Assembly: GCA_002104905.1 (NCBI GenBank)
Contig: MCFE01000150.1
Span: forward strand, 89,306-153,305
From: Basidiobolus meristosporus CBS 931.73
Taxonomy: Eukaryota; Basidiobolomycota; Basidiobolomycetes; Basidiobolales; Basidiobolaceae
Direction of reading: 5' to 3'
Length of the DNA: 64,000 nt
Shown piece by piece: positions 11,801 to 64,000 of the stretch (positions within the stretch are counted from its first letter, which is position 1; every line of letters starts with the position of its first letter). Made by a program: the position numbers and the translations under genes. The notes beneath the pieces were generated by a model that was not told where the DNA came from, searched no databases, and saw only the letters and a program-made list of their open reading frames with translations.

Positions 11801-11939
11801 CCAGAACACCCTCAAGGAAGAGCTATCCTTAGCTCAGGAAAGCTACAAGAAATTTGCCAATCTAAAACGGCATCCCAGCCCTGATCTTAATGAAGGAGAT
11901 TCTGTATGGTTGCTCAGAAGAAACATCAGCACCAACCGC
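8820..11939 (+). pseudogene. Gy1 pol: protease, RT, RNase H, integrase (first part)
   Basis: One frame carries a pepsin-like protease with LIDSGASS near 8975, RT with YLDDILI near 9955, RNase H starting ETDASDFALGA near 10395, an HHCC zinc domain (HDSMAAGHFG...CDICNRA) near 11065-11200 and an integrase core with SDRG near 11455 and the catalytic Glu 35 residues later. In-frame stops lie at 9321-9323 (TAG), at a second site shortly after, at 10557-10559 (TAG at an expected Trp) and at 11337-11339 (TAG). The frame runs into the Gy2 insertion at 11939 and resumes at 19119. Confidence 0.92.
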
Positions 11940-13010: not shown

Positions 13011-13014
13011 TATT

Positions 13015-13032
13015 TGGCACCCAACGTGGGGG
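13015..13032 (+). other. Gy2 primer-binding site
   Basis: TGGCACCCAACGTGGGGG begins four bases after the 5' LTR. The TGG start fits pairing with a tRNA 3' CCA end. The primer tRNA was not identified. Confidence 0.75.
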
Positions 13033-13150
13033 GTTCATACAAGCTCCCTAGGACCCAACAAGATTTACCTGAAGATTTGAGCTGTTATCCACCTATTGAA
13101 AAGAGACTACCGATATTACCAAGATTACAACACCAACCTACCTGGCCAAA

Positions 13151-16100
13151 ATGAACTCTATGCCATTACCACTCTCACATGGAGCCCCACAGTTTGATGG
13201 AAAGAATGTGGAAAGCTTCATATTCAAATGGGAGAAGCTCTGCAAGATGTGCAGCCTATCTGAACAAGAAATGGCTGAAGACTTCCCCTACTACTGCACC
13301 GATGATATTACCACTAAGCTTCTCAGACAAGGAGACATTCTCACTGACTGGGCCTTAATGAAGACCTACCTACAGACCAAGTATGGTAGACCCCAGATAT
13401 ACTATGGAATTGAAGACCTCAGGCACTTTGGAAGAACTGGACTTTCCAAGCTACCACTTGAAGAGTTCATTCAACAGTGTGACAATATGGCCAAGCCACT
13501 CCTAGAGTCCCAGGCTATAACTGAGTTTACCATGACACTTTACCTTGCACAAGGGCTTCCCCAGGACTTGGCAAGGAAAGATGACTTACATGCAGCCAAG
13601 GATGACAAGTCTGGCATTCCTTGCTTTGCAGAGATGAAACGTGTTCTCCTAGAGGCAAAGCAAACTTCTACCTTTATGAGACTCCTGACATCTAATGTGC
13701 CAGACCAGTCAACCAAGGAGCCAAGGAGTGCTGCTGCTGACAATCAGACCTACACTACCAACAGAATTGACCAACTTGCTGAAGAGCTACAAAAGCTAGC
13801 CCTCAAGATTAATGGCTCAGCCGAGGTTGCCACTGATGGACAAAGACCTTTGCCCAGGCACTGCATCTGGTGTGACTCTACTCAGCATGCCAGACAAGAA
13901 TGCTCAGAGCTTAGTCAGCTACTCAGAGAAGGAGCAGTACAGTTTGATGCTGATGGAATGCTTGCTGACAAGGAAGGAAGAAGGATTCCCACTAATTTCC
14001 AAAGAGGAGGGATGAGAGCCCTTTTCCAGAAATCTGACTCAGCAACCAGAAAGATTACTTTTGATGCCCCTATTGGGACTCATAAAGTGAATCCAAGCAG
14101 CCCTGACAACAGACAACATGAAGTTGATGCCTTTGCTACCAAAAGACACCTTGCTGAAGAACCTGCCAAGCCCATCCTTAGAAGACCACGCTTTGAAGAA
14201 CCTGAAGTTGTTATTGACAAGAGGCCTAGTATGCTGCCCACCCAAGATCCATTGCCTCACTTTCAGATGACCTCAAAGATAGCAAGCTACTCAAGCCCTC
14301 AACTGATTACTGAGAAGCTGCTGAAGCAGAACCTCACTTTGTCGGTTGGAGAAATCATGAGTGTATCCCCATCTGTTAGGAAGACCTTTGATGAGCAGCT
14401 TAGAACAAGACAACAAGCTGTTGAACATATGGACACTCATATAATTCAGACAAACCATGAAGACCACCAAAAGGATGACAACACTACTGAATATAAGACC
14501 TTTAACTCAGTTGTAAATGCTGTGGTGAAAGGGTATATATATGATGACCCTGTTGACTGCCATATTGACAGTGGCTCAGAGATTTGTGTTATGCCGCTAG
14601 ACTTCTGGAAGACACTTAAAAGCAAGGAGCTACTGCCTGTTGATAGAGATATTGGATGGAACATGACCGATGCAAACTCAGGATCTAGTCCACTCTATGG
14701 TGTAGTACACAAGTTTCCTATTGAGGTACAAGGAATCAAGGTCTGGCTTCCCCTCTTCATCTGCCAGAAGGCAAACTTTGACCTTCTGCTAGGTAGACCA
14801 TGGGAAGCCAGTACTAAGGCTACAACTACCAACTATTCCAATGGGTCAGTATGGTACACCATACAAGGATCCAACCCAGGACTACAGTCAACCTTCTGTG
14901 GTGTAACACCCAACAATAAGAGGACACATACTGCCTGCCAGAAGACACATCTTGTTATGGAAGAAGATGAAGAGCCTCACAATATACACCCCAACATTTG
15001 GAGCTGCTCATTAGGTATACAGGAGCAGACTGCTATGGTTCGGACAAAATACAAGACAGTAGAACAGATGATTAGACCATCACTTACACCTTTGACTGAT
15101 GGATCCCGACCTGCTGATTACATTAGACCACCAGAAGAAACACCAGATGATACACAACTTACACCTGAGAGACTTAAGCAACTTATCATTGGTGATGGAA
15201 ACCTTACACCAGAGGAGATACTATTATTTAAGGAGACCTTGAAAAGGCATGATAAGGTCTTCTCATATAATGACAAGGAGATGGGACTCTTAAAGACATC
15301 AGTTGAAAAACCCATCAAGATTCATACAGTGCCCCACACACCCTGGTCATTTAAGCCTTACCCACTGCCCAGAGGACTCCAAGCTGATGTGCATGACCTA
15401 CTTAAGAAGAAGATAGAAGCTGGTATCCTAGAACCTTGCCATGGACCCTATGCTAACAGATGGTTTGTGACCAAAAAGAAGAATGGAAAGCTCCAATTCA
15501 TTCAAGACATGCAACCTGCAAATGCTGTCACTATCAGAGATGCTGCTATACCTCCATCTATTGATGACTTTGCAGAAAGCTTTAGTGGCCACTCCATCTA
15601 CTCAACATACGATCTCTACTCAGGATATGACCAGATTCCCCTTGATGAGACATCAAGAGATATGTTTGCGCTACAGACACCATTTGGACTATTAAGGATG
15701 ACAAGACTCAGCCAAGGGGCTACAAACTCCGTGGCTCAGTTCCAGAGATGCATGGTGAATGTGCTATACCAGTTTATACTTGAGAAACTTGCTGTCTTTG
15801 TTGATGACATAGGCATCAAAAGACCAAAAACCCGGGACACCACTGGAGTCATGCCTGGAGTCAGAAAGTTTGTCTATGATCATATTTCAGACAATGATGC
15901 CATATTAGGAGCCATTGAAGAAGCTGGACTCACCATCAGTGGTGAGAAAAGCAGCTTTGGTGTATCAGAGATATCCATTGTTGGACAAAAATGCAATACC
16001 TTTGGTCGCTCACCTGGCAATTCCAAGACACAAAAGATATGCAACTGGCCTACCCCCACAAATCTAACACAAGCTCGTGGCTTTGTGGCAGCTTGTGGGT

Positions 16101-18004
16101 TCTTTAGGATCTGGATCCCAAGATTTTCTGAGATAGCAGAACCAATCTACCGACTACCGAGAAAGAATACCCCATTTATCTGGGGAGAAGAGCAAGAAGA
16201 AGCCATGCAATTACTGAAAGAGGCCTTAGTATCTCCACCAGTTCTAAGACCTCTTGACTATCAAAACACTGAATGCCCACCTATTTTGACAGTGGATGCA
16301 AGCCCTATAGGAGCTGGAGCACTACTTGGACAAGATGATGAAGATGGCAATTGCTATGCCTGCAGATATGAGAGCTGCCTATTCTCTCTTAGAGAGCAAA
16401 GATACTCACAGATTAAAAGAGAACTACTAGGAGTTGTGAAGATGCTGAGGAAGCTGAAGTCACAACTCTACATGACACATTTTATCCTGGAGACAGATGC
16501 CAAGCCACTTATAGGAATGATCAACAAGCCTGACCTACCTGATGATGCCACAAACCAATGGATGGCATGGCTGAAAATGTTTGACTTTGAGGTCAGACAT
16601 ATCCCTGGCAAGACAAATGTTGTGGCTGATGCACTCTCCCGGAAGGGACCACAATTATTTGAAGACTTGGACCCTCACTTTGATGATATTATTGATGCAG
16701 AGATCCGACGAATTGCCATCAAAGACCAAGAGAGAACTACCTGGAGTCTGATCAAGGAATATCTAAGGACTCTTAAAGAACCTAGTTGGATGGAAATTCA
16801 GGAGTTTAGAAAACTCAGGAAGAAGGCACATCACTACTATCTTAAAGATGATCTTCTCTTTAAGCGAGTGAAGCCTGGACTTATGCCAAGAAGAGTAGTC
16901 ACTACCCCTCAAGAGCAACTGAACATCATGACAAGTATCCACCAAGGAGAACCAGGAGGACATAGAGGACGAGAAGCCACCTACTATACCACAGCTCAGA
17001 GGTACTACTGGGAAAACATGTACTATGATATTCAACACTTTGTTGAGTCATGTGTAGCCTGCCAGAAGAGATCCTCCAAGTGTTATGAAGAACCACTGCA
17101 TCCTACTTACACAATCTGTTTATGGCAAAAGGTTGGTATTGACCTTGTCCACATGCCAACAGCTGGATCAAAAAAGTACCTGATTGTTGCTAGAGATGAC
17201 CTTAGTGGATGGGCAGAGGCTCAAGCCTTGCCCAACAACAAGAGCCATACCATATGGAGATTTATACTTGAAGACATCATCTGCAGATTTGGCTGCATCC
17301 AACAGTTTGTTGCTGACAGAGGAGAGATGACATCCCAAATGATCCAGGAGTTGTGCTCAAAGTACAAGATACACATTGCTTTTACAACCGCTTACCACCC
17401 TCAAGCCAATGGAATGATAGAGAGAGGACATGGACCATTGGTGAACTCTCTTGTCAAGGCCTGTGAGAATAACACAACACTGTGGCCACAGCAATTACAT
17501 CTTGCACTCTGGGCAGATAGAATTACTACCAAGAGAACAACTGGATTATCACCATTCAAACTACTCTATGGACATGACTGCACACTACCAGTTGAGTTAA
17601 ACACAGTCACTTGGAACTCATTGAATTGGAGATCCAATATGCAGACTGAAGACCTCCTTGCAACTTGCATACAGCAACTTGATCACCATGACTTGAATAT
17701 CAGCAGAGCTGCTGAACAACTTAAGGATACACAACTAAAGAACAAGATGCCCTTTGACAAATCACACCCAACAAGACCAAAACCACTATCACTAGGAGAC
17801 CCAGTATTACTCTATGATTCTACCTTGGACAAGCAATGGAGTCGGAAGTTTGACAACAAATGGACTGGCCCCTACCTCATTTCCAAAGTGATTGGAAATG
17901 GAAGTTATTACATATCTGAGCTTGACAACACCCAGTTGAGAGCACCAGTTGCTGGATATCGACTTAAGTTATTCAAGCATAGGAATTTTGCACATGAAGA
18001 TTAG
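13151..18004 (+). CDS. Gy2 Gag-Pol polyprotein
   Basis: A single 1617-codon ORF encodes the whole retrotransposon polyprotein. In order it shows a gag region from residue 1, a CX2CX4HX4C knuckle at about 238-251 (CIWCDSTQHARQEC), protease Asp at about 473 (HIDSGSE), RT Asp pair at about 885-886 (FVDDIG) and RNase H Asp near 1049 (TVDASP). The integrase HHCC zinc region spans about 1264-1304, and its D,D,E triad is at about 1331, 1389 and 1424. A GPF/Y-like tail (KWTGPYLISKV) closes the protein. There is no chromodomain. The last two integrase residues are 34 apart rather than the usual 35. There is no frameshift or stop, so it may still be active. It would act in reverse transcription and integration of its own RNA. 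Confidence 0.96.
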   Translation: MNSMPLPLSHGAPQFDGKNVESFIFKWEKLCKMCSLSEQEMAEDFPYYCTDDITTKLLRQGDILTDWALMKTYLQTKYGRPQIYYGIEDLRHFGRTGLSKLPLEEFIQQCDNMAKPLLESQAITEFTMTLYLAQGLPQDLARKDDLHAAKDDKSGIPCFAEMKRVLLEAKQTSTFMRLLTSNVPDQSTKEPRSAAADNQTYTTNRIDQLAEELQKLALKINGSAEVATDGQRPLPRHCIWCDSTQHARQECSELSQLLREGAVQFDADGMLADKEGRRIPTNFQRGGMRALFQKSDSATRKITFDAPIGTHKVNPSSPDNRQHEVDAFATKRHLAEEPAKPILRRPRFEEPEVVIDKRPSMLPTQDPLPHFQMTSKIASYSSPQLITEKLLKQNLTLSVGEIMSVSPSVRKTFDEQLRTRQQAVEHMDTHIIQTNHEDHQKDDNTTEYKTFNSVVNAVVKGYIYDDPVDCHIDSGSEICVMPLDFWKTLKSKELLPVDRDIGWNMTDANSGSSPLYGVVHKFPIEVQGIKVWLPLFICQKANFDLLLGRPWEASTKATTTNYSNGSVWYTIQGSNPGLQSTFCGVTPNNKRTHTACQKTHLVMEEDEEPHNIHPNIWSCSLGIQEQTAMVRTKYKTVEQMIRPSLTPLTDGSRPADYIRPPEETPDDTQLTPERLKQLIIGDGNLTPEEILLFKETLKRHDKVFSYNDKEMGLLKTSVEKPIKIHTVPHTPWSFKPYPLPRGLQADVHDLLKKKIEAGILEPCHGPYANRWFVTKKKNGKLQFIQDMQPANAVTIRDAAIPPSIDDFAESFSGHSIYSTYDLYSGYDQIPLDETSRDMFALQTPFGLLRMTRLSQGATNSVAQFQRCMVNVLYQFILEKLAVFVDDIGIKRPKTRDTTGVMPGVRKFVYDHISDNDAILGAIEEAGLTISGEKSSFGVSEISIVGQKCNTFGRSPGNSKTQKICNWPTPTNLTQARGFVAACGFFRIWIPRFSEIAEPIYRLPRKNTPFIWGEEQEEAMQLLKEALVSPPVLRPLDYQNTECPPILTVDASPIGAGALLGQDDEDGNCYACRYESCLFSLREQRYSQIKRELLGVVKMLRKLKSQLYMTHFILETDAKPLIGMINKPDLPDDATNQWMAWLKMFDFEVRHIPGKTNVVADALSRKGPQLFEDLDPHFDDIIDAEIRRIAIKDQERTTWSLIKEYLRTLKEPSWMEIQEFRKLRKKAHHYYLKDDLLFKRVKPGLMPRRVVTTPQEQLNIMTSIHQGEPGGHRGREATYYTTAQRYYWENMYYDIQHFVESCVACQKRSSKCYEEPLHPTYTICLWQKVGIDLVHMPTAGSKKYLIVARDDLSGWAEAQALPNNKSHTIWRFILEDIICRFGCIQQFVADRGEMTSQMIQELCSKYKIHIAFTTAYHPQANGMIERGHGPLVNSLVKACENNTTLWPQQLHLALWADRITTKRTTGLSPFKLLYGHDCTLPVELNTVTWNSLNWRSNMQTEDLLATCIQQLDHHDLNISRAAEQLKDTQLKNKMPFDKSHPTRPKPLSLGDPVLLYDSTLDKQWSRKFDNKWTGPYLISKVIGNGSYYISELDNTQLRAPVAGYRLKLFKHRNFAHED

Positions 18005-43484: not shown

Positions 43485-46400
43485 TTAGCCGCAGAAGCAG
43501 CCGAGGCATAGATAAGCAAAGCAGCCGATGAACTTGATTAGGGAGAGGACTGCAACAGCCCAGAAGATGAAGGTAAGATAGAGATGGCTCGAAACAGAGG
43601 TGGTTGGCGTTTTTAGGTTGAACCAGGAGTTGCTCTCGATGGCTTGGAACACAAGAATTAATACGACATTCGAGAAGATCCACACTAGCACGGTGCGCGT
43701 ACGGAAAAGCCGGTAGTAATCCTCCCTCTTGGTTTGAGCGTCTCGCTTGTCCTTTTTGACTACAGGGCGTATAGCGAGGTCTTTAACCGTCTCCTCGTAG
43801 ATGGCGTTGATGTCCTGGCGCTGGCTTGGCACCGCCAAAGCTGCCACCTCCTTCCCTTGCTTCGTGGTCTGCACCATGACCTTGCCTAGGTCTCCGGTAG
43901 ATCCGTTGTCGCCCTTTGTTCCCCATGAAACATCATGGGTATTGCAGAACGCATATACCATCAAGATGTTCACGTACGAGGGGAAGATAAAGAGATACTG
44001 GATGAAGGAGGTAATCATATGCCAAGGATCGAAGTACAGAATCGAAGATACTATGTACAGGCCATAAGTGGACGCCAGCGCAATAAATAGGTTCAAGCTC
44101 TCTTTTGTGAACGGATGCTCCCTCATCAGCTGAGTATTGCTGGGGTCGGAGAAATACGTGTACAGGTTGAACCCAACCGCATACAGCATGATCCCCATGA
44201 TGAACGCGAAAATGAATACGCACAGCAGATAGATCGCCTTCGAGCCCTGGGGACGGTTTCCAAGCGAGAGGATGAACTGGACGATGATGCCTAGCAGAAA
44301 GATCTGTCTGGCGATGGGGAACACAATCCAGGAGTATCCGAAAAATGGATCCGGATGGTTGGCATCGGACTCCTTGGGCATAGAAGCATCGGCCAGGAAA
44401 TAGAAGGTCAAATAGAAATTGCCCTGGTTCGTTGAATCGAATAAACGGTTAACGCGGGAAACTTATCCACCACCAGGAAAGCAGCAACTTACCAAGGCAA
44501 ACCAGCTGAAGAACAGGGAAATGATGTTGTAGATGAACTGGACAAAAAACAAAATCTTCCGGAATAGCCCGTGCTCTGTCCCGTAGATCCGCAACCAGTG
44601 TGCGGTGGCAAAGAACGCCGCGAAGAGTGATCCGTTGAGCCAACGTCTGCGTTGAGAGATAAATTCGGGCCAGCTGTCGGGCACATCGGTCTCTGCTTTG
44701 GCCGCCTGGAAGATGCACCGACCGGTTTAGTAAGACTTCGTCTCGTCTATGATTAGACAGCAACCTACCTTCACATACTTCAGCACCCAGTTGCAGTTCT
44801 TTTTGGCAACCAATTCAAAGCACAAGATACGATCCTCGGCTAGATACATGTTGGCCTCGAAAATACCGCCAGTAGCATCGGCGCCGTGCATAGTCTCGCC
44901 CTTGAAGTAAGATGCCAAGGGGCCTATACCGGGGGCAGTGTTCTTCAAAGCGGCGTAACGATACGCGGAAAACGCTCCAGGAAGCACACTGATATAGCCA
45001 AAAACGCTTTCCAACGGCTTATCCAGAATATTGCTCATTTTGTACTCGAAATTCTGCGCAGCGACCAATGGATTGATGAGATTCTTCCAGCCTGTGCCTA
45101 GCTCCACGCAGATTTCGCCACATGCTCCTCCTACGTTGCGGTCGCGGTCAAACGCTAAATGTGAATCGTGTTAGCAACAGGGTCACGAAAACTTCCGAGA
45201 CCAAATCCATTTACCTTTCCACAGGTGGTAGATGGATGTTCCGCTAGGTCTGGTTCCCACATCCAAGAGAACACACACGTTTGGATTCAACAGCGGCGCA
45301 AACGCATTGAAAAACCAGCGGTGGGAATTCAGCTTCTTCTTGTTCTTTTCCTTCAAGCAGAAGATAATCTGGGTAGGCACATATTGCTTCTCGGAAATGG
45401 ACTTCACCTGCAGTCTCTTGTTCACGTAAAGCTGCGTGGTGTATTCGTATAAATGGGCGGTAACGTCTTTGCCATTCACTTCACTCTGGGCAATCTCTTC
45501 TTGGTAGACTCCCATGGCACTGAGCACTTTGAGAACCCTAGGATGGACCTTTGTGCGGCCGTCGGCAACAACACACACCACCACCTTGGTCCAACCCTCT
45601 TTCCCCCATGTTTTGGAGCGGCTCCGGGTGCACAGATGGCGGATATTTTTGATGACTCCGCTGAAGGTTTTGATGAAAAGGTTTTCATCTTCGTTGTACA
45701 TCGTCATGACAACAAACAGTTCTGTCGTACGGCCGTAGACCGCCTGGCGTAGGGTATACTTGGATGCCAGGAATTCATCCGGATCGCAAGTCACAGCCGT
45801 GTATCTCATGTGGGTAAACTCCCGCTGATCTTTGTAATGTGCAGATGCCAAAACGCGATCGGGGACTGGGCAATCCAGAACCAAATTCCCGCTTGTCAAC
45901 TCGATGTGTTTCAAGCTGCGTCTGCGCTCCTCCACGTACCGCTCAAAACGTCGCGCATTCTCAGGAGGCGCGAAAGCAGGGTCAACGAGGTCTTTGATAG
46001 GAGCACGCCTGCGTGGCCCCTCGGACTCGACTATTGCTTGCAACTGTTCGCTTTGCAGAGGATCGGTCGGCGACGAGGCCTGCTCCTGGAGGGTTCTGAT
46101 CTCCGGAGCACTAGGCTCGCTATGAAGAAGCTCGTGGGCAGGGAACTCCTGCGGGTACGTGAAACGAGGGTCGATAGGGGGCTCCGGGGCAGAAGGAAAT
46201 GGATACATCATCTGTGGCCCGCCATGCGAATAGTAAGGTTGTGGATAGGGTAGCTCGTAGGGAAACATGAAGGCTCCAGTCTGGTGAGGCTCCGGCATGG
46301 TTGAGGGTTGTGGATAAGGCCTCTCAAGGTGTTGTAGAAGGTTGACCGCGCTGTGGGAGTCTAATGTGCTAGGTTGACCAGACCGATATGATAAGTCATC

Positions 46401-46754
46401 CGAGCGGTCTTCTGAGTGGTTGCGCTCTCGATTTTGAGGGGGTGAATCGTCTAGGTAGTGCTTGTACATTTTCTTTATCAGCGCCTCGAAGGGGGAAAAG
46501 TATACGGTTATTAAGTAAGACCAAAATGGGCTCTCTAGCGCGTTAACGACGAATTCCTTGTAAGAGCAAAGTCTTATATCAAACTTGACAAGTAACAAGC
46601 CAAACACTAAAGATGCAGGAATGGAGTAAAGGTAGATCCAAGATATCAATAGTAGACAGCGGCTAAGTATAAGCTGAACGATACGGATGAGTGTGGAGAT
46701 TAGAGTTGAAAATAGAACGATGGTGGCAAAATTGTAAGGGACTTTGTCCATCAT
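43485..46754 (-). CDS. Chitin synthase (division 1)
   Basis: Four exons, 46754-45215, 45154-44769, 44705-44493 and 44423-43485, total 3078 nt and 1025 residues. The enzyme polymerises UDP-GlcNAc into chitin at the plasma membrane. The catalytic core begins near residue 330 ([13 protein letters not shown]), then [88 protein letters not shown] and the hallmark QRRRW at 660-664. Seven or so membrane spans follow. The phrasing resembles class I-III enzymes. Unusually, the N-terminus is not a soluble disordered arm. Residues about 8-66 contain two or three hydrophobic spans, and the Pro-rich disordered segment (about 115-260) comes after them. Start ATG 46754 leaves room for no longer frame. Confidence 0.95.
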
Positions 46755-54292: not shown

Positions 54293-54680
54293 TTAATAGA
54301 TAAATTTGACAAACGATGCCAGTTCCTGGTCGTTGCGGAATCTTTCCAAGTATTCCGTCTCTACAGTAACACAGGCGTCAATTCCCCTGCCTTGCTTTTG
54401 TAGCGGCGGCATATCGAATATGCAAATCATCCCAACAACAAAGGATGCTTCCCGCCGACAACATACAGGAGCTCCGTCGCCGAAATCAGTGGTGTAATAG
54501 CCAAACTTCGACCAGTCAGTGGCTACGCAGTCCGCATCTACCAACCACTCGGGTATTATTTGTGGCAGAGGCGCACCGTTGTCGGGATACAAATGATTGA
54601 TCCAGGATTCCTTGGGCTCATATCTGCCTGTAAGGACGGCCTGGCGCATCCTCAAAGCCACACTTCCGAGTGTTCCGTTC
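54293..54680 (-). pseudogene. C-terminal remnant of a BAHD/HXXXD-type acyltransferase
   Basis: About 129 codons matching the C-terminal end of the fungal CoA-dependent (trichothecene acetyltransferase-like) transferases: LGSVALRMRQAV, ATDWSKFGYYTTDFGDGAP with the DFGxG-type structural motif, a hydrophobic strand (VGMICIFDMPP), CVTVETEYLERF and the stop. The catalytic HXXXD half is missing. The frame runs straight into TTAGGG at 54681, so the 5' part of the gene was lost, apparently by a terminal break followed by telomere addition. The substrate cannot be told from this part. Confidence 0.75.
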
Positions 54681-55652
54681 TTAGGGGGGGGGATGATAAT
54701 CACCACAGGGTGAAATCTTTATTTAAATTGTAAATAAAGAAGCCAAGTTTGAATATGAATATCTGAGATGCAGTTAGCCTACAAGATAAACCTGGACTTT
54801 GCTGTATCCCAAATATCCTCAATATCAAAGTTTAGAGGAGAATGTAGCAAAACTGCTTGTTCACTGTAGTATTTCTTGAGGAAGTTTGTGACTTGAAGGG
54901 AAGGAGAGTTCTTCAACAAGCTGGTAAACCTTTTGAGGAGGTCTTTTTCCAGAGAGAATGGTACAAAGAGTGGAATGTCTAAATGATGTCTGAATATATT
55001 CTCTGAGAGCTCCCAATCCAGCATATTTTTGACTTCTTCTGTAATATCTTCAACAATATCTTTGTCAAGAATGACTTCCAAGTGATCCCTGGAAATGTAC
55101 TGAATGCTAATAATCCTAGGCATATGAATACCTAGGTCCTTGAGGTAGTTTCTTTGTTCTGAAATTGGAAGATAGCCAGCATTTCTGAAATAGCAAACAG
55201 CCCAATTGGAAGTGGGAGGAGTATCAGGGCTGACAGGGAATATTCTTCTGGCTTTAGGGTGCACTGGCTTAGGTGACTGTCTTGTTGGAAGGGCAGCTGG
55301 CTTTGGATGCGCTTGAAGTGCTTGGGAGTATGTCTGAGTATGAATGGCAGGAGTTGCTGGTTGCTGATAGTGCTCAGATTGACTGGAAGAAGTGCTGGTT
55401 GAGGGGTTGCAAGGTAAGGAAGAAGCTGAAAGAGAAGTAGAGAGTGCTGTGTGAAGATCAGAGAGAGTTTTGAAAAGAACCTAGATCTGAGATTTCAACA
55501 TTGAGTTTTCAGCTTCCAGAAGAGAAACTCTTTGTTCAAGATAAGAAGTCTGTAAAGAGTGAAAGTTGGGTAAAGACATGGAAGAAGTAGATAATAAGAA
55601 GAAAGGAGTAGTTGGGGTAGGAGGGTGAGAAAATAGTTAAGAAGAAAAGAGA
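54681..55652 (-). mobile_element. ORF1-only non-autonomous retroelement (telomeric array unit 1)
   Basis: A roughly 970-bp unit on the minus strand. Its 3' end reads GGCTTCTTT...AAATAAAGATTTCACC, then the hairpin CACC-CTGT-GGTG, then a run of nine C joined to CCCTAA of the flanking telomere motif. That tail is the one used by the LINE and the SINE further out. It encodes only an ORF1-type protein and no endonuclease or RT. Telomeric GGGTTAGGGTTAGGGG at 55653-55668 borders its 5' end. Confidence 0.75.
54779..55579 (-). pseudogene. ORF1-like protein of the non-autonomous element
   Basis: A frame of 267 codons from ATG 55579 (MSLPNFHSL) with one TAG at 55483-55481. The N-terminus is a coiled coil (LEQRVSLLEAENSMLKSQI). 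A Ser/Pro/Gln-rich linker follows, then a globular C-terminus (TSNWAVCYFRNAGYLPISE...HLEVILDKDI...IEDIWDTAKSRF). The C-terminus aligns with ORF1 of the full LINE (STWTVVYLKQVPWTPISN...ILEVILDQNI...FEELWDSAGH). By analogy with LINE ORF1 proteins it should bind element RNA. If the TAG is real, only the part from a later start is made. Confidence 0.75.
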
Positions 55653-55668
55653 GGGTTAGGGTTAGGGG
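55653..55668 (+). repeat. Interstitial telomeric tract
   Basis: GGGTTAGGGTTAGGGG lies between the ORF1-only element and the next, unidentified unit. Confidence 0.9.
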
Positions 55669-56470
55669 TCTAAATTCTTTTATTGAATCTGATCAAGTAT
55701 AGTAATACCATTTCAACTTGATTCAAGTTGAGTAGTGCAAATTGTACAAAGAAAATATATTTATGGTAATGTGAAGGTAAATATACTGCTTAAGTTGAGT
55801 TGAGTTCTGAAAAGAAATTTGTCAATAAATTAGGCTAGAAATGAAGTAAAGATGGGAGTTATTTGAAAGCAAAGCACCAAGGGAAAGTGTAGAGCTATAC
55901 TACCACTTCCTGGAAGGCAGGGATGTCACAGGAAGGCAGAAGCTCAGGTCTAATTGCAGATATGATAGCAGAAAGTCTCTGGATGAGCTCCCTTTGTTTG
56001 TGAAATTGGAACAAAGATTGGGTATCTTTGAACCCAAAGCAGCTCTCTACATGAGAGAAGTAAAAATACCTGCTACAGTAGGGGCACTTGGTGTTGTAAG
56101 AGTCTTGGAGATATTGGAAGTGATTGGGAGGACAAGTAGATTATGTGGTTTTCACTTAATGATTTATTGAATGTAAAAGTGGTATTTATACTTTTACCTG
56201 GTCCTGGCATTGCAAACACGTAGAATAGGTTAAGGAAGGTCCCAAGAACATGTGTGCAAAGTTTGGGGCTGTTTGGTCAACTTTGAGATATTTCATGTTC
56301 TGGGCACCTGATGTTTTGGTGAATATATTCCAAGTAGTTTCTGAAATCTAATTGATGGAAAACAAGGTCACGACTCAGTGCTTTTAATAAGCACAGCTAT
56401 CATCCTCCTACGTGGAGTAGCCAAACTGTGGTATTCATACGATTACTACTCCTTCTGATTTGGTTTCACC
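55669..56470 (-). other. Unidentified array unit with an embedded copia LTR piece
   Basis: Bounded by telomeric motifs at both ends (TTAGGGG at 55663-55669, TTAGGG at 56471). Read on the minus strand it ends with an AATAAA near 55680 and GACCCCTAA, so it looks like the 3' end of another retroelement. It lacks the CACC/GGTG hairpin tail of the other units. I find no coding region. A copia LTR fragment occupies 56094-56338. Confidence 0.4.
56094..56338 (-). repeat. Inverted copia LTR fragment
   Basis: TGTTGTAAGAG at 56094 begins an inverted stretch closely matching the copia LTRs of the first 25 kb (GATTTATTGAATGTAAAAG, TACTTTTACCTGG, GTGTGCAAAGTTTGGGGC). About 100 bp of the LTR's outer end are missing at 56338. 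Confidence 0.85.
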
Positions 56471-56999
56471 TTAGGGGGAGGAAAGTCACCAAGTGGTGAA
56501 ATCTTTATTTACTTATGACAAGTATCTAAAGAAGCCATGTTAATCTGAAGTAATTCCTAGAAAGCTAGGTCTGAGAGATATCTTCCTGGTAAGCCAGGTC
56601 TGAGAGTTGAGAAGCTGAGTGGTACTATATTTCCTAGTTAGCTAGGTCTGAGAGAGGTTTCCTGGAAAGCCAGGCCTGAGAAGTGAGAATCTGAATATAT
56701 CTGAGCCAAGTTATACTGGTTTGCGGTAGCTGAATTGTGGCCAGAATAGCCAGTAGACTGGGGGAGCTGAGATGAATATCTGGGAGATCACTGGCCAAAT
56801 TTACTAGGCAAATCTGGCCAACTAGCATTTCAAGGATTTCAGCCAATCAGAGCCTTTACTTTGCCCGATGGTTGATCAAGCCATCTCCCAATGAGCACAC
56901 ATCAATTTTATTAATCAAATTTTTGCTGGATCTAGGATTTGAACCCACAACCATGGGTATGGAAGGGTTAGGGATAACCACAAGGCTAAGTGTTCTTGG
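56471..56999 (-). mobile_element. tRNA-derived SINE with LINE-type tail
   Basis: Read on the minus strand. The head contains a pol III A box, TAGCCTTGTGGTTA (56988-56975), and a B box, GGTTCAAATCC (56945-56935), about 30 bp apart, as in a tRNA. The body carries four short hairpins (56554-56682). The 3' end is GGCTTCTTT...AAATAAAGATTTCACC, hairpin CACC-ACTT-GGTG and a run of five C next to CCCTAA. The tail is the LINE tail, the known way SINEs borrow a partner LINE's RT. The head abuts a single TTAGGG unit and then the 3' end of the truncated LINE. Confidence 0.8.
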
Positions 57000-57000
57000 T

Positions 57001-58480
57001 TAGGGGGGGAGACAGTCACCAACAGGTGAAATCTTTATTGCAGTTGAAACAAAGAAGCCAGCGCTACTGTTGTAGCTTTGATACAAGAGTGTGTAGCTGA
57101 GGGGAATTTGTAGGTAAGTTAATAAGAAGTGATGATAGCTCTTCAGTGCTCAAGACACTGTTCAGTGGGAAGGGGGGTAGCAAGAGAGGTAAGAATGACT
57201 TGTGAACAACATTAATGAGGGGAATGTGATAAGGATTGATATTCATCATAAATGGAGTGTGCTGCTGCAGATATTGCTGCCAAAGGTCTGTCAAGTACTT
57301 CAGGTAGGCCAGCTTGGGTTTTTCTGACTGCAGAATAAAGTGAGCAAACTTCTTGACTTCAGGATCTCCAAGTATAGTTCTCCAGCAGGAGCCAGGTGTT
57401 GTGTGGTGAGTTCTCTTCCAGGCCTTAATCAGTGGGTTGTTGCAGTTGTGAAGTCTGAGGTATAATCTGGTTCTAAGGTAGAGAAGTCTGATCTTATAGG
57501 GCATAAACCCAAAAGCACCAAGAATAGCATGTCTGTAGGGGCATTCAGGCAAATGAGGCACCAAGGAGGTAATGCACCATACTGCAAACTTGTCAAGCTT
57601 AGTGCAGTCTCTAGAAGTAAGAGAGAGAAGTGGTAAGCCAAATTCTAGGACAGGGAAGACAAACTGCTTGAGTAGAAGGAGGCAGCTGGGAGCTGAAGTT
57701 GTAGGAGGAGTAACAGCCAACAGCTTGTGGAGTGCCTGTCTTGCAAGGATAATTCTCTTCTTCAGGTGTGCTCCAGAGTCTAGTCCAGTAGGAAGGAAAG
57801 GAAAGCCAAGATATGTAGCAGAAACCTGAGCAGGTAGAGTGGAGTTCTCCAAGCTGATGGGAGAGCCCAAAGGTACTGTCTTTGCAATGGAAAGCTGGAG
57901 ATTATTCTTCTGCAGATACTGGTGGATGGTCTGGGAGTCTTGTTGCACATTGGAGGAGGATATTCTGATGTCATCAGCAAAGAGAGTAACCAGGCAGTCA
58001 GCTGAGAGTCTTGGGAAATCATTCAGGAAGATGGCAAACAGTATAGGACCAAGCACAGAGCCTTGAACCACTCCATTAGGAACTGAGAACACAGCTGATT
58101 GCTCACTTGGGTGCAGAATTCTTGCTTGTGGATCCAGAAACAGAGACCTGACAAGGGGGGTGAGAGAGGTACTGGAGAAGCATTGCAACTTGGACCAAAG
58201 CAGATTTCTGTCAACTGAATCAAAGGCCTTAGTAATATCAAACAGAACTGAGGGATACTTGCACTGGAGAGAGTGATCTTGGCTAAGTATGACTGCATAT
58301 TCCAAGGAGAGGCCAGGAACAAAGCCAAACTGTGCAGGATGAAACTTGAGGGAGTCAGAGTAGAGCTCCTGAGCAAGCAGAAGCTCAAACACCTTTCTGC
58401 AGGTGGGCAGCAGAGATATTGGCCTGTAGGAGCTAGGATCCAGGTGCTTTCCTTTACCCTTGTACAGTGGCAGAACATTT
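57001..58480 (-). mobile_element. 5'-truncated telomeric LINE (copy 2)
   Basis: Nearly identical to the last third of the full LINE at 58518-62926. It starts, in element sense, within the RT just before NVLPLYKGKG and runs to the shared 3' tail (hairpin CACC-TGTT-GGTG, seven C). The 5' breakpoint at 58478-58480 shares TTT with the telomeric TTTAGGG that caps it. It has one open frame and is non-functional because endonuclease and ORF1 are absent. Confidence 0.92.
57064..58480 (-). pseudogene. Truncated LINE ORF2: RT core and C-terminus
   Basis: The frame holds RT motifs SSYRPISLLPTCRKVFE, FGFVPGLS, FDITKAFDSVDRN, GVVQGSVLGPILFAI and LFADDIRISS, then the thumb and C-terminal region to the stop at 57064. 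It differs from the full copy at only a handful of residues. The open frame continues upstream into telomeric repeats without a start, so it is a truncated remnant rather than a gene. Confidence 0.9.
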
Positions 58481-58520
58481 AGGGTAGGGTAGGGTTTAGG
58501 GTTAGGGTTAGGGTTTAGGG
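58478..58520 (+). repeat. Degenerate interstitial telomeric tract
   Basis: About seven units mixing TTTAGGG, TAGGG and TTAGGG lie between the truncated 5' end of LINE copy 2 and the 3' end of the full LINE. The mix of unit lengths is unlike the uniform TTAGGG at the chromosome end. Confidence 0.92.
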
Positions 58521-58577
58521 GGGAGACAGTCACCAACAGGTGAAATCTTTATTTCAGTTGAAACAAAGAAGCCAGCG

Positions 58578-61346
58578 CTACTGTTGTAGCTTTGATACAA
58601 GAGTGTGTAGCTGAGGGGAATTTGTAGGTAAGTTAATAAGAAGTGATGATAGTTCTTCAGTGCTCAAGACACTGTTCAGTGGGAAGGGGGGTAGCAAGAG
58701 AGGTAAGAATGACTTGTGAACAACATTAATGAGGGGAATGTGATAAGGATTGATATTCATCATAAAGGGAGTGTGCTGCTGCAGATATTGCTGCCAAAGG
58801 TCTGTCAAGTACTTCAGGTAGGCCAGCTTGGGTTTTTCTGACTGCAGAATATAGTGAGCAAACTTCTTGACTTCAGGATCTCCAAGTATAGTTCTCCAGC
58901 AGGAGCCAGGTGTTGTGTGGTGTGTTCTCTTCCAGGCCTTAATCAGTGGGTTGTTGCAGTGGTGAAGTCTGAGATATAATCTGGTTCTAAGGTAGAGAAG
59001 TCTGATCTTATAGGGCATAAACCCAAAAGCACCAAGAATAGCATGTCTGTAGGGGCATTCAGGCAAATGAGGCACCAAGGAGGTAATGCACCATACTGCA
59101 AACTTGTCAAGCTTAGTGCAGTCTCTAGAAGTAAGAGAGAGAAGTGGTAAGCCAAATTCCAGTACAGGGAAGACAAACTGCTTGAGTAGAAGAAGGCAGC
59201 TGGGAGCTGAAGTTGTAGGAGGAGTAACAGCCAGTAGCTTGTGGAGTGCCTGTCTTGCCAGGATAATTCTCTTCTTCAGGTGTGCTCCAGAGTCTAGTCC
59301 AGTAGGAAGGAAAGGAAAGCCAAGATATGTAGCAGAAACCTGAGCAGGTAGAGAGGAGTTCTCTAAGGTGATGGGAGAGCCCAAAGGTACTGTCTTTGCA
59401 ATGGAAAGCTGGAGATTATTCTTCTGCAGATACTGGTGGATGGTCTGGGAGTCTTGTTGCACATTGGAGGAGGATATTCTGATGTCATCAGCAAAGAGAG
59501 TAACCAGGCAGTCAGCTGAGAGTCTTGGGAAATCATTCAGGAAGATGGCAAACAGTATAGGACCAAGCACAGAGCCTTGAACCACTCCATTAGGAACTGA
59601 GAACACAGCTGATTGCTCACTTGGGTGCAGAATTCTTGCTTGTGGATCCAGAAACAGGGACCTGACAAGGAGGGTGAGAGAGGTACTGGAGAAGCATTGC
59701 AACTTGGACCAAAGCAGATTTCTGTCAACTGAATCAAAGGCCTTAGTAATATCAAACAGAACTGAGGGATACTTGCACTGGAGAGAGTGATCTTGGCTAA
59801 GTATGACTGCATATTCCAAGGAGAGGCCAGGAACAAAGCCAAACTGTGCAGGATGAAACTTGAGGGAGTCAGAGTAGAGCTCCTGAGCAAGCAGAAGCTC
59901 AAACACCTTTCTGCAGGTGGGCAGCAGAGATATTGGCCTGTAGGAGCTAGGATCCAGGTGCTTTCCTTTACCCTTGTACAGTGGCAGAACATTTGCAAAG
60001 GACCATTCCTCAGGAGTAGAAAGCTGGGCTGAGCATTGCTGAAACAGTGGAAGCAGAAGTGCAGACATGGCCTTGGTACTAGTCTTCAGAAGCTCATAGG
60101 AGATTGTGTCCACACCTGGAGCAGTAGAGTTGGGAAGCCTCTTGAGCACATTATGGATTCTCCTTTGATCAAGTGCAAGTGGGATGGGCAGAGTCTTGAA
60201 GTCAGGATGAAAGCCAGGAGTTGAGTACTGCTTTGTAGAGAAGAAGATGTTAGCCAGCTGTTCTGTTGAAGGTAACTTCCTGGAAGAGGGCCTCATTGCC
60301 CAGTAGAGTCTTGATACTGTTCTTGTTATAGAGTTGGAAGATTGCAGAGGCAAGGAACTCATAATATGATCCCAGAGCTGAGTATGCAGAGTGTGGTGAA
60401 TTGCCTTGGAGTGGTGTATTGCTGTCAGGAGGAGTTTCTCTGTTTTTGGGTTAGGGAAACTCAGGTAGCTTTGTTGCAGGGCTGAAACAATGGATTCCCA
60501 TTTTCTTGAGGTAACAGCAGTAGTCTTGCATGGCAGTGAGAGGGAGGCAGACACCAGAATCAGATGCTTCACAAAGAGCCAGGCATAGTTGAGATCATCT
60601 GGCAGAGAAAGTAGCAAACTGGCAAGCTTCAAGTAGTTCCCAAAGTCTTTCTTCTGATTCTTGGTAGCTTTGTGGGTGAGCACAGTAAGTTTTGGCAGCT
60701 TCTTCTTCACAACTGGTTGCATAGAAAGGGACCAGGCTGGGTGGTCAGAGGCTCTCAAGGATCCTAGCTCAGCTCCAGAGAATTGCTTGACTTCATCCAC
60801 AAAGTAGAGGGCAGCAGCAGAAGGGCAGATCCAGTCAACACATCTTTTCTCAGATTGAGCACCTAGTGCTAGCAGATGGCTTTCTCTCAGGAAGTTCAGT
60901 AGGAATGTAGACCTTGGCTTCATTCTTGCAGTCAGAGTAGTCTTGTTCTCAGGATGGGGAATGTTGAGATCTCCAAGCAAGATAATAGGTGTTGATATAG
61001 ATTGCTGGTATTGCTGAACTTTCTGGCATATAACTTGCACTTCCTGAAGGGCAAGACTTGGAGGCAGATAGCAGAGCACCAGACTGATAGTTGGCAACTG
61101 GAGAGCAGCACAGTAAGGGGAGTAAAGAGGAACACAGAGCTGAGGAGTATTGATGGTAGAAGAGATGAAGCAGATAGAGGAGGTATTCTTTGTTCTAGGA
61201 GTAGAAAAGCAATATAGATTAGTCAAAAGTATAGAGGGTAGCTGGACATCAATCAAACACAGGAGGGAAAATCTTGAAAGAAGTCTCTCTAGAGTTGGTC
61301 TTGATGGCTGTATGCTGTTGCAGTTAAGCAACAGAACTTCAGGTAG
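58578..61346 (-). CDS. LINE ORF2: endonuclease and reverse transcriptase
   Basis: An open frame of about 920 codons. An APE-like endonuclease comes first (LNCNSI; GDLNIPH; VDWICPS; SDHPAW). The RT follows: TAPGVDTISYELLKTS, VLPLYKGKGKHLDPSSYRPISLLP, QFGFVPGLS, DITKAFDSVDR, GVVQGSVLGPILFAI and FADDIRISS with the catalytic DD. A long C-terminal region has no zinc knuckle that I can see. The endonuclease begins right after a UGA that ends ORF1 in the same frame. The first AUG is about 135 codons in, past half of the endonuclease. Where many APE enzymes have QET, this reads IDV (CLIDVQLP). The frame is otherwise intact. Confidence 0.9.
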   Translation of the reverse strand, partial: LPEVLLLNCNSIQPSRPTLERLLSRFSLLCLIDVQLPSILLTNLYCFSTPRTKNTSSICFISSTINTPQLCVPLYSPYCAALQLPTISLVLCYLPPSLALQEVQVICQKVQQYQQSISTPIILLGDLNIPHPENKTTLTARMKPRSTFLLNFLRESHLLALGAQSEKRCVDWICPSAAALYFVDEVKQFSGAELGSLRASDHPAWSLSMQPVVKKKLPKLTVLTHKATKNQKKDFGNYLKLASLLLSLPDDLNYAWLFVKHLILVSASLSLPCKTTAVTSRKWESIVSALQQSYLSFPNPKTEKLLLTAIHHSKAIHHTLHTQLWDHIMSSLPLQSSNSITRTVSRLYWAMRPSSRKLPSTEQLANIFFSTKQYSTPGFHPDFKTLPIPLALDQRRIHNVLKRLPNSTAPGVDTISYELLKTSTKAMSALLLPLFQQCSAQLSTPEEWSFANVLPLYKGKGKHLDPSSYRPISLLPTCRKVFELLLAQELYSDSLKFHPAQFGFVPGLSLEYAVILSQDHSLQCKYPSVLFDITKAFDSVDRNLLWSKLQCFSSTSLTLLVRSLFLDPQARILHPSEQSAVFSVPNGVVQGSVLGPILFAIFLNDFPRLSADCLVTLFADDIRISSSNVQQDSQTIHQYLQKNNLQLSIAKTVPLGSPITLENSSLPAQVSATYLGFPFLPTGLDSGAHLKKRIILARQALHKLLAVTPPTTSAPSCLLLLKQFVFPVLEFGLPLLSLTSRDCTKLDKFAVWCITSLVPHLPECPYRHAILGAFGFMPYKIRLLYLRTRLYLRLHHCNNPLIKAWKRTHHTTPGSCWRTILGDPEVKKFAHYILQSEKPKLAYLKYLTDLWQQYLQQHTPFMMNINPYHIPLINVVHKSFLPLLLPPFPLNSVLSTEELSSLLINLPTNSPQLHTLVSKLQQ

Positions 61347-61349
61347 TCA
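61344..61349 (-). promoter_or_regulatory. Candidate stop-codon readthrough site UGA CUA
   Basis: ORF1 ends at UGA, and the next codon is CUA in the same frame as ORF2, which is open from there on. UGA followed by CUA is a known leaky context in viral and some cellular genes. ORF2 has no AUG near its start. Confidence 0.5.
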
Positions 61350-62884
61350 GGCAGAGGTTGTAGCTTCTTCAGAGGCAGCATTGACAATGTGACCTGCAGA
61401 GTCCCAGAGCTCTTCAAATGGTGCATCACTTAAGTCAGCAAGGAGGGAAATGGCATGGTTCTTGAGGAAGTATGCCACATCATAGGAGGGGGCTTGTCTC
61501 TTGATGGCAGCAAAGAAAGACAGAATGGCAACATGGGCTGGAGGCTTGTTGAACAGTAGAGAGTCAGAGGATTCAGATTCTTCAGGCACTATCTTGAAGT
61601 CAGTTTTCAGCCAGTTAAGGTTCTTCTCCACAAAGGCAACAAATGGGTCAGCAATGTTTTGGTCTAGGATAACCTCCAGAATCTTCCCTTTTCTCCAGGC
61701 CAGGTTGACAATTCTTGAGAGCTGAATATTGCATGCCTTGAGTGCTTTCCTGATGTTGGAAATGGGAGTCCAGGGAACTTGCTTCAAGTACACCACAGTC
61801 CAGGTAGAAGCTGGTGGTAGGTTTGCTGGGGGCTTGTAAGTCCTTCTGTGTGGCAATGGAGCTGCAGTAGTCAGATTGGAGTCCACATTCTCAGTAGAGG
61901 GTTTTCTTGATGTGTCTTGCTGAATGGTACTGGAGCTGGATGTGTTGATAATTCTTGCTAGAACCTTGCCTGCATAAGTCTGAGGTATAGCTGAGGTGAC
62001 TGTAGAGGTGGTGGCAGCTGGTGCAGGTGGAGAGGCAGAAACTGAAGCAGGAACTGAGGTCACCTGGGAGAAGGCAGTAGAAGCAGGTTTTCTGGGAGGA
62101 ACAGAGTTCACTATCCAGTTGTTCTGTAAAACACTGGAGTAGCTTTTCTGTGGAACAGGATCTTGCTCTTGAACAGGAACAGAAGCAGCAGGCTGGGGCT
62201 GAGCAGTAGTGGTAAGGCAGTGGCACTCCAAGGAAGCTTTTTGCAAGGCATCTCTGGCAGTTTTCAGGGCAGTATTAGGCTTCATTCTTGAGCTTCTTGC
62301 ATTGGGCATCCAGTCTCTTGTTTTCAATAGTCAGGGCAGTATTGGCAGCCTCTATAATCAGCAATTCTCTTCTCAATTGCAAGGAATCTCTGAAGAAATG
62401 CATCAGTAGAAGTGCTGGCATCTGGGAGAGCAGTGGCAGGAATAGAGTCCATTGACAGTGGGCTTCTTGGAGGCAAGGAAAGTGGACTGGCAGATTCAGG
62501 CACAAAAGGAGATATCCTGGCAGGAGGAGAAGGAGTATCCAAGGCAGTAACAGAGGCAATTCTTGTTGGTGAAGCAGCAGCAGGGGAGGCAAGCCTGTTC
62601 AGAAACTGGGCAGGAGAGAGTGCTTGAGGAGAGGGAGTCTTCAGCTTGCCAAGCATGTCTTCCATCAGAGTGATACCAATATTCCTGGTGCATTTGCAGA
62701 GAAAAGTAAGCTTCCTGAGTCTGCCAGCTCTTCCATTCCTTCTGATAGTTCCTTTGTTTCCACAGTTGGGGCAAGAAATCTTCTTGATAGACTTGTCAAA
62801 GCAATCAAGAACCTTCCTTTCAGGTGTAGTGGGCTCCTGTTGAGGTTTTGGTGGCATATCCAGAGTTTCAGCTTCAAATTTCAA
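61347..62884 (-). pseudogene. LINE ORF1, split over three frames
   Basis: The N-terminal part (62884 inward) has a zinc-ribbon-like CPNCGNKGTIRRNGR...LCKC near 62710-62775 and a Ser/Pro-rich stretch. A coiled coil (LLIIEAANTALTIENKRLDAQCKKLKNEA) near 62280-62370 is read one frame over. From about 62327 to the UGA at 61349-61347 a third frame carries a Ser/Thr-rich linker and the C-terminal domain (TWTVVYLKQVPWTPISN...EVILDQNI...FEELWDSAGH) shared with the ORF1-only element. Two one-base shifts separate the parts; they are lesions, assembly errors or, less likely, programmed. ORF1 proteins coat LINE RNA. Confidence 0.78.
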
Positions 62885-62926
62885 TTTTTGAGATTTTTGG
62901 GTGATTTTTGATGGGCGGGATCAAAA

Positions 62927-62940
62927 TTAGGGTTAGGGTT
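62927..62940 (+). repeat. Short telomeric tract at the LINE 5' end
   Basis: TTAGGGTTAGGGTT directly follows the 5' end of the full LINE on its telomere side. Confidence 0.9.
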
Positions 62941-62981
62941 GCGCGCTGTGACTGCTTTTTACGATCGCAAGGTCAGAACCT
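62941..62981. other. Unique spacer before tandem repeats
   Basis: Forty-one bases (GCGCGCTGTGACTGC...) not seen elsewhere in the window. They are more GC-rich than the repeats that follow. Confidence 0.5.
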
Positions 62982-63776
62982 AGGAAAAAATAAAAATAGT
63001 TAGTAAAGGTGATTTAATGGATGGATGGATGGATTCGGAGTCAGATTCAATCAAAAAATCAAATCGTTGACTAATTTAAAGAGGAAAAAATAAAAATAGT
63101 TAGTAAAGGTGATTTAATGGATGGATGGATGGATTCGGAGTCAGATTCAATCAAAAAATCAAATCGTTGACTAATTTAAAGAGGAAAAATAAAAATAGTT
63201 AGTAAAGGTGATTTAATGGATGGATGGATGGATTCGGAGTCAGATTCAATCAAAAAATCAAATCGTTGACTAATTTAAAGAGGAAAAATAAAAATAGTTA
63301 GTAAAGGTGATTTAATGGATGGATGGATGGATTCGGAGTCAGATTCAATCAAAAAATCAAATCGTTGACTAATTTAAAGAGGAAAAAATAAAAATAGTTA
63401 GTAAAGGTGATTTAATGGATGGATGGATGGATTCGGAGTCAGATTCAATCAAAAAATCAAATCGTTGACTAATTTAAAGAGGAAAAATAAAAATAGTTAG
63501 TAAAGGTGATTTAATGGATGGATGGATGGATTCGGAGTCAGATTCAATCAAAAAATCAAATCGTTGACTAATTTAAAGAGGAAAAATAAAAATAGTTAGT
63601 AAAGGTGATTTAATGGATGGATGGATGGATTCGGAGTCAGATTCAATCAAAAAATCAAATCGTTGACTAATTTAAAGAGGAAAAAATAAAAATAGTTAGT
63701 AAAGGTGATTTAATGGATGGATGGATGGATTCGGAGTCAGATTCAATCAAAAAATCAAATCGTTGACTAATTTAAA
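62982..63776 (+). repeat. Subtelomeric tandem repeat, eight units of 99-100 bp
   Basis: Units start at about 62982, 63082, 63182, 63281, 63380, 63480, 63579 and 63678. They appear identical except for five or six A after AGG. Each contains four or so GGAT tetramers and the block GGAGTCAGATTCAATC. The last unit runs directly into the telomere (TTTAAAGGGTTAGGG). There is no coding potential. Confidence 0.97.
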
Positions 63777-64000
63777 GGGTTAGGGTTAGGGTTAGGGTTA
63801 GGGTTAGGGTTAGGGTTAGGGTTAGGGTTAGGGTTAGGGTTAGGGTTAGGGTTAGGGTTAGGGTTAGGGTTAGGGTTAGGGTTAGGGTTAGGGTTAGGGT
63901 TAGGGTTAGGGTTAGGGTTAGGGTTAGGGTTAGGGTTAGGGTTAGGGTTAGGGTTAGGGTTAGGGTTAGGGTTAGGGTTAGGGTTAGGGTTAGGGTTAGG
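63777..64000 (+). repeat. Chromosome-end telomere, (TTAGGG)n
   Basis: About 37 uninterrupted TTAGGG units in the G-rich orientation run to the last base. This orients the window with the centromere to the left and marks the right chromosome end. Confidence 0.99.

Follow-up and report, generated by a model that had tools for sequence, protein, structure and literature searches.

Stacks of retroelements sharing a 3' tail at the chromosome ends of Basidiobolus meristosporus

The right end of contig C370 in the assembly of Basidiobolus meristosporus CBS 931.73 (positions 89306-153305, a stretch of 64,000 nucleotides termed here the window) contains a stack of retroelements between a broken host gene and the telomere, including copies of a long interspersed nuclear element (LINE) and smaller partners that share its 3' tail. 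Across the genome, copies of this tail lie near contig ends, have their 3' ends directed inward and join TTAGGG through a run of G residues. The explanation that we favour is that the elements are probably added tail first to short or broken chromosome ends, which are later recapped by telomerase, and this suggests that the stacks help to rebuild damaged chromosome ends alongside that enzyme. The assembly comprises 89.0 Mb in 1311 contigs; PacBio sequencing of this strain is described in PMC7466969, and a protein recorded under the strain's name matches the LINE reading frame ORF2 at 97% identity over 26% of its length.

Position and orientation of the shared tail

On the plus strand of the window the tail is a G-run followed by family-specific bases and then by TCACC-N4-GGTGAAATCTTTATT, with TTAGGG lying inward of the G-run. 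A 15-base core of the tail has 1,729 copies in the genome (1,574 forward and 155 reverse), and likeness by chance was rejected, the reversed-pattern control giving 0 copies in both directions. Of the first 100 listed tails, drawn from 26 contigs, 36 are on contigs longer than 100 kb, and every one of them is found no more than 25 kb from the end faced by its 5' side; the chance of this averages 0.12 per tail, and some of those contig ends were read for telomere repeats. On contigs of at least 60 kb, 127 of 134 sampled tails follow the tail-inward rule. An ordinary dispersed LINE was rejected on this position of the copies, target duplications not having been searched for. An exact TTAGGG occurs 8-32 nucleotides (nt) inward of 83 of the 95 tails found in both listings. 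When exact cores were examined without requiring a G-run, three or more G residues were present within 40 nt inward in 165 of 166, TTAGGG in 147 of 166, and five consecutive T or A in two.

Strand bias as an artefact of contig orientation was likewise rejected, because contig C424 (312,558 bp) carries mirror-image copies of a full-length element resembling a short interspersed nuclear element (SINE) immediately inside the telomeric repeats of its two ends, each with its tail inward, and because minus-strand copies on C419 have nine CCCTAA repeats outside them. The left end of C424 opens with a CCCTAA tract, and nine or more TTAGGG repeats stand some 150-220 nt short of its right end. Altogether, 18 full-length SINE 5' ends pass straight into at least nine perfect repeats, and copies of a second partner, which encodes only the first open reading frame (ORF1), are close to many contig ends. 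C80 is cut off within a LINE at one end, and its copies reach as far as 24.7 kb inward from there; neither end of C217 is telomeric. The assembly contains 8,105 TTAGGG 18-mers, 8002 forward versus 103 reverse, and division of the total by the number expected per 200-nt tract yields an estimate of about 259 telomere tracts. As an oddity of the assembly, most contigs seem to be oriented with the telomere to the right, and an internal (TTAGGG)3 was seen at C1:184730, 184.7 kb into a 345-kb contig.

Composition of the stack and its partner families

The earlier note on this DNA had described a stack of at least five units between a truncated gene and the telomere, and this is present at 54681-64000 as five units and a satellite. 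From the inside outward, the truncated gene is followed by the ORF1-only element, a unit termed E2, the SINE-like element, a truncated LINE, a longer LINE, the satellite and the telomere; the corresponding joints are TTA plus G9, TTAGGGTTAGGGG, TTA plus G5 between E2 and the SINE-like element, TTA plus G7, a degenerate tract plus G6, and TTAGGGTTAGGGTT. Apart from the satellite, four of the five units share the tail and lie on the minus strand with the 3' end inward, as had been claimed for all recognisable units; E2 lacks the tail and departs from that description. The motif TTAGGGTTAGGG has 39 copies in the window against 0.01 expected, of which four are within the stack (55656, 58496, 58502 and 62927) and the others form part of the terminal tract.

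The host gene fragment (54293-54679, minus strand) belongs to an acyltransferase family (Pfam PF02458, E 1.5e-6). It retains roughly the final 70 positions of the profile (364-433 of 434), and the break falls at the first telomeric motif, where TTA and G9 (54681-54692, plus strand; C370 position 143989) join the gene to the first element. The latter, labelled HET (54693-55655, minus strand), was delineated by ORF calling and by homology to the LINE ORF1. Its 161-amino-acid protein (54779-55264) has 30% identity to that ORF1 over 159 aligned positions (E 4e-16), which makes it, as judged from sequence, a gag-only-type non-autonomous partner homologous to the LINE ORF1; its 5' end reads ...GAGAGGG on the plus strand. 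Beyond TTAGGGTTAGGGG (55656-55668, plus strand) lies E2 (55669-56470, strand not assigned), which has no long ORF and about 250 bp of which are found again in other stacks in both orientations. The SINE-like element (56479-56999, minus strand) also lacks a long ORF, and its 5' end reads ...CTTGG on the plus strand. It shares its 3' tail with a LINE of the same genome, the defining feature of a LINE-dependent SINE, as which it is putatively classed. Near its 5' end a box B-like motif of RNA polymerase III promoters, GGTTCAAATCC (56935-56945, minus strand), resembles the box B consensus; this is the sole tRNA-like feature, as ARAGORN and Rfam found no tRNA in the element.

The 5'-truncated LINE (57003-58478, minus strand; RVT_1 E 1.3e-25), with its tail inward and a G7 run at 57003-57009, matches the longer copy at 98% over 300 nt. 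A degenerate interstitial telomeric tract (58479-58517, plus strand) separates it from that copy (58518-62926, minus strand), whose G-run occupies 58518-58523 and whose tail begins at 58524. The tail includes a 3' stem-loop, TCACC-N4-GGTGA (58530-58543, minus strand), with a predicted RNA fold of -9.6 kcal/mol. Against shuffled sequences the hairpin has z -2.87 in the LINE, -1.60 in the ORF1-only element and -0.74 in the SINE, the three tails that the folding covered. Outside the 5' end of the LINE are TTAGGGTTAGGGTT (62927-62940, plus strand), eight copies of a 99-bp satellite (62986-63777, plus strand) and the terminal TTAGGG tract that reaches the contig end (63776-64000, plus strand).

The longer LINE has an ORF1 region of two overlapping frames (61347-62327 and 62324-62884, together 61347-62884, minus strand) and an ORF2 of 917 amino acids (58578-61331, minus strand) that combines an apurinic-type endonuclease-like region with a reverse transcriptase (RVT_1 E 2.6e-25). 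A Pfam scan of ORF2 gave no integrase match, and FADD or YADD is present in all seven aligned rows; an RVT_1-type reverse transcriptase with this motif and without integrase in the ORF is characteristic of non-long-terminal-repeat (non-LTR) retrotransposons, to which the LINE is assigned on the predicted protein. The endonuclease-like region matches PF14529 (Exo_endo_phos_2) at E 5e-4 and 20.4 bits, under the 27.4-bit cut-off, and retains six of seven compared catalytic-type residues (N4, D122, N124, D167, D197 and H198). The seventh, a Glu at ORF2 residue 29 (61248-61250) in all 33 other LINEs, is Asp in the three telomeric kin rows that have the residue. A PDB search with this region returned no match at E<=10, and the Pfam scan detected no restriction-like endonuclease, for which Pfam may have no model. 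Of the best 50 ORF2 copies among 1388 first-look candidates, 46 are uninterrupted, and all 50 span residues 1-918 at >=99% identity. No relatives turned up in a search of viral contigs.

Two additional families with a like tail were recognized at other ends by reading rather than by domain search, namely IV, a second LINE-like lineage, and V, a second ORF1-only-like one. G-run length peaks at 6 in the LINE and the ORF1-only element, at 5-6 in the SINE and at 4 in IV and V. In our reading, the five families form one telomere-restricted non-LTR group with one kind of tail, presumably read by shared machinery.

Elsewhere in the window, ORFs for a reverse transcriptase, RNase H and integrase at 9354-18004 belong to what we take to be a Ty3-like retroelement, and chitin synthase fragments occupy 43485-46754 on the minus strand, the match at 43485-44411 being under its cut-off.

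Junctions and the growth of the stacks

We classed 172 junctions from selected loci, using a search pattern that demanded a G-run and dropping 8 unclassed matches. TTA stands ahead of the G-run in 149 of the 172 and is incomplete or absent in 23, so that the assertion in the earlier note that every junction fits was too strong; the near-end location, the tail-inward orientation and the joining of the G-run to TTAGGG are borne out genome-wide. The exact telomeric sequence before the G-run has a median of 5 nt and is at most 9 nt in 153 of the 172 junctions, versus 119-222 nt for the terminal tracts at 9 of 17 contig ends examined. The other eight ends have fewer than three repeats, and the terminal tract was measured by a one-edit rule that halts at larger irregularities, such as that on C667, where it continues further. 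These lengths weaken the proposal that telomerase repeats are laid down between rounds of addition.

Under the favoured explanation, the usual substrate would be an end that is short, broken or uncapped and carries zero to two repeats. The 3' end of its TTAGGG strand would pair with the C-run of an element RNA and be extended by the LINE reverse transcriptase, after which the new end could either prime the next element or receive a telomerase cap; wear of uncapped ends would result in frequent 5' truncations. Several features point to such end addition: the inter-element tracts amount to about one repeat, unlike those at the termini; the innermost element adjoins a broken gene; and a telomerase domain is encoded in the genome. 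Two stretches on contig C880 score above the curated cut-off for the telomerase RNA-binding domain, one of them with an internal TAG, and the search for this domain in 14 control genomes matched none. Further support comes from the 5' junctions. A truncated element precedes the tract at 66 junctions, of which 42 overlap it by at least 0 nt; the test excluded the other 24, in which unmatched bases intervene. The mean overlap of the 42 is 1.98 nt against 0.75 nt simulated, a value reached in 0 of 2000 simulations, and remains 1.53 nt for 40 junctions when two overlaps of at least 10 nt are omitted. Across these 40, every one of the six registers is represented where a truncated 5' end joins the tract; the shared seeds include T, GGT and AG, and ten junctions have no seed. 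We read the seed overlaps as healing of free ends, and a single site-specific second-strand cut would be expected to give a single register.

The main rival to addition at free ends is endonuclease-primed insertion into duplex telomere, in the manner of TRAS and SART and as proposed for FoTeR, in which ORF2 would nick the G-strand of TTAGGG, the nick would prime synthesis, and long tracts would later break or shrink to one repeat. We regard this as possible, at a probability clearly below that of end addition. It accords with the retention of the endonuclease-like region, common to relatives, with the regular 3' junction and with the enrichment of longer tracts near the end. The description of MoTeR in the cited part of PMC7367193, an element with the same orientation and stable junctions of one to two repeats that is said to internalise telomere repeats, also favours it. 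What duplex insertion explains poorly is that exact tracts do not exceed 29 nt (35 on a relaxed count) even at the 10 junctions closest to the end, none more than 1 kb from it, as opposed to the 119-222 nt of terminal tracts, that the 5' junction registers are scattered, and that three 5' ends, apparently full-length and closing with GGG, are joined to the next G-run without TTA. The fusions on C466 and C946 were identified by alignment and that on C384, where the match ends 12 nt short of the reference end, by eye. For 5' ends of the ORF1-only element, 11 junctions were found within 30 nt, one of them a direct fusion.

Several observations nevertheless count against end addition. Inter-element tracts of about one repeat, next to telomeres of 119-222 nt, fit poorly with plain priming by a TTAGGG 3' end, and these short tracts may be the survivors of longer ones. 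With six of seven catalytic-type residues present, nicking may still be used, and a 3' junction as regular as that in 149 of 172 cases would also be expected from a fixed nick. Tracts of at least 15 nt occur in 5 of 32 junctions within 2 kb of the end versus 5 of 131 beyond (Fisher p 0.026), and tract length has a rank correlation of -0.16 with distance from the end (p 0.04), both tests covering 163 of the 172 junctions after removal of C217 and the inverted stacks; longer tracts near the end are also expected from loss of long interstitial tracts over time, whatever the entry route. The direct fusions could stem from template jumping. Finally, 7 of the 134 sampled tails are inverted, in interstitial stacks at 95.2-99.5 kb of the 218-kb C558 and 56.3-61.1 kb of the 69.6-kb C726, with telomere-like junctions. 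Copies in either orientation, named in advance as evidence against priming on the telomere, do therefore occur, confined in this sample to two contigs whose stacks look like relics. The idea that the elements prime on the telomere 3' end thus retains the agreement of position, orientation and junction form, and is qualified by the one-repeat tracts and the inverted tails.

Growth chiefly by recombination, that is by break-induced replication from TTAGGG or element sequence at another telomere with retrotransposition a rare event, appears unlikely as a general account. A satellite and not a retroelement is the outermost unit of the stack in the window, directly under the telomere and outside the LINE, and at other ends satellite sequence precedes elements at 6 of the 172 junctions; this alternation of satellite and elements suggests recombination between ends. 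Adjacent SINEs are also somewhat more alike (mean 1.7% apart, 5 pairs) than those on different contigs (2.9%, 810 pairs), and one innermost junction is common to two contigs. A general role for recombination is opposed by the open and nearly identical state of the best ORF2 copies (46 of 50 open, all at >=99% identity), by the intermixing of five families with differing junctions, G-run lengths and truncation points, and by the sole adjacent ORF1-only pair, which is 7.7% apart. The common junction, on C361 and C191, is nearly the same on both contigs, with G-runs of 8 and 7, and these are perhaps duplicated or allelic ends.

Template jumping, a property of R2-type enzymes, would carry the reverse transcriptase from the 5' end of one RNA to the C-run of another and so form a head-to-tail stack in one event. 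The apparently full-length 5' ends joined directly to the next G-run are what it predicts, but 149 of 172 junctions hold the TTA of a telomeric repeat, which it would not supply unless the RNA ended in CCCUAA, and all 29 identified preceding LINE copies are truncated against the reference used. As the source of the stacks it is therefore very improbable.

Returning to end addition, a stronger version is a standing two-enzyme system of end maintenance, in which telomerase caps healthy ends, and the LINE reverse transcriptase with partner RNAs regularly rebuilds uncapped ones, at about 250 ends and from free 3' ends rather than nicks. We put this forward tentatively, as somewhat more likely to be wrong than right. 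For the proposal that inward elements are old and outward ones young, these copies offer a weak test. As it predicts, SINE divergence increases away from the end (41 copies, rho 0.32, p 0.04). In 31 copies of the ORF1-only element the trend runs the other way without reaching significance (rho -0.27, p 0.14). Among pairs in one array, the inner copy has diverged further in 4 of 10 SINE pairs and in the single ORF1-only pair.

Relation to known telomeric elements

Given their sequence features, we file the Basidiobolus elements as a probable variant of telomeric non-LTR elements outside the MoTeR, TRAS/SART and HeT-A families; they are set apart from MoTeR by an apparently different endonuclease type, from SART1 by the absence of poly(A) and from HeT-A by the presence of telomerase repeats. 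The suggestion that they are a separate fungal example with several partners is supported by the tail census, the junctions, the families and the open ORF2 copies. Among the titles and abstract openings listed from open-licence papers, none described such telomeric retroelements in Basidiobolus. The fungal telomeric retroelements in the passages cited here all belong to the MoTeR/Cnl1 clade, and Basidiobolus would bring to the fungal set a host outside Dikarya, SINE-like and ORF1-only partners, and a LINE whose endonuclease-like region is of the apurinic type. Its genome combines many ends with dozens of open ORF2 copies and a telomerase gene; this fungus offers a natural test ground for retroelement repair of uncapped ends, and is suited to asking how telomerase and retroelements divide end repair.

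HeT-A, TART and TAHRE of Drosophila build chromosome ends as tail-inward stacks without telomerase repeats, HeT-A encoding only gag (ORF1). The Basidiobolus stacks resemble them in being terminal and tail-inward and in having an ORF1-only partner, and differ in that most junctions hold TTAGGG, terminal tracts reach 119-222 nt at 9 of 17 ends, and a telomerase domain is encoded. Morrish et al. in 2007 reportedly found endonuclease-independent insertion of L1 at mammalian telomeres, primed by an unprotected telomeric 3' end; what is there a laboratory condition of a dispersed element would in Basidiobolus be a regular habit.

TRAS1 and SART1 of the silkworm have an apurinic-type endonuclease. 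They are LINEs that target telomere repeats and, according to the cited part of PMC7265360, SART1 has a poly(A) tail, requires at least three repeats and cuts between TT and AGG. Their poly(A) contrasts with the C-run of the Basidiobolus tails, and they insert into duplex repeats at a fixed site. Set against the single fixed register of such insertion, the Basidiobolus 3' junctions are regular (149 of 172) and the 5' junctions of 40 truncated copies are spread over all six registers.

Cnl1 is an element of Cryptococcus. It and FoTeR of Fusarium oxysporum are non-LTR elements associated with telomeres and bounded on both sides by telomeric motifs, features that PMC12857005 describes for FoTeR; there Cnl1 is named with FoTeR and MoTeR as one clade having restriction-endonuclease-like domains. 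FoTeR is thus like the Basidiobolus elements in its association and motifs, and differs in its membership of the MoTeR1 clade, apparently in its endonuclease type, in its 3' ends followed typically by 3-7 repeats, and in the lack of a SINE partner in that description (PMC12857005).

The closest in behaviour is MoTeR of Magnaporthe (Pyricularia) oryzae, here compared from its description. In the cited passages of PMC7367193, MoTeR1 and MoTeR2 have a common 3' sequence and form stacks in which the 5' ends face the chromosome terminus, stable tracts between elements have at most two repeats, internal relics occur, long interstitial telomere tracts break, and 19 of 24 telomere healings in the blast fungus have seeds of 1-4 nt. 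Orientation, stacking, tail sharing, short stable tracts, relics and seeds are thus common to both systems. MoTeR is placed with restriction-like-endonuclease elements (PMC12857005) and has the variant repeats TTCGGG and TTTGGG at its 5' end, whereas the Basidiobolus LINE has an endonuclease-like region of apurinic type, a tail with C-run and stem-loop, and four partner families, one of them SINE-like.

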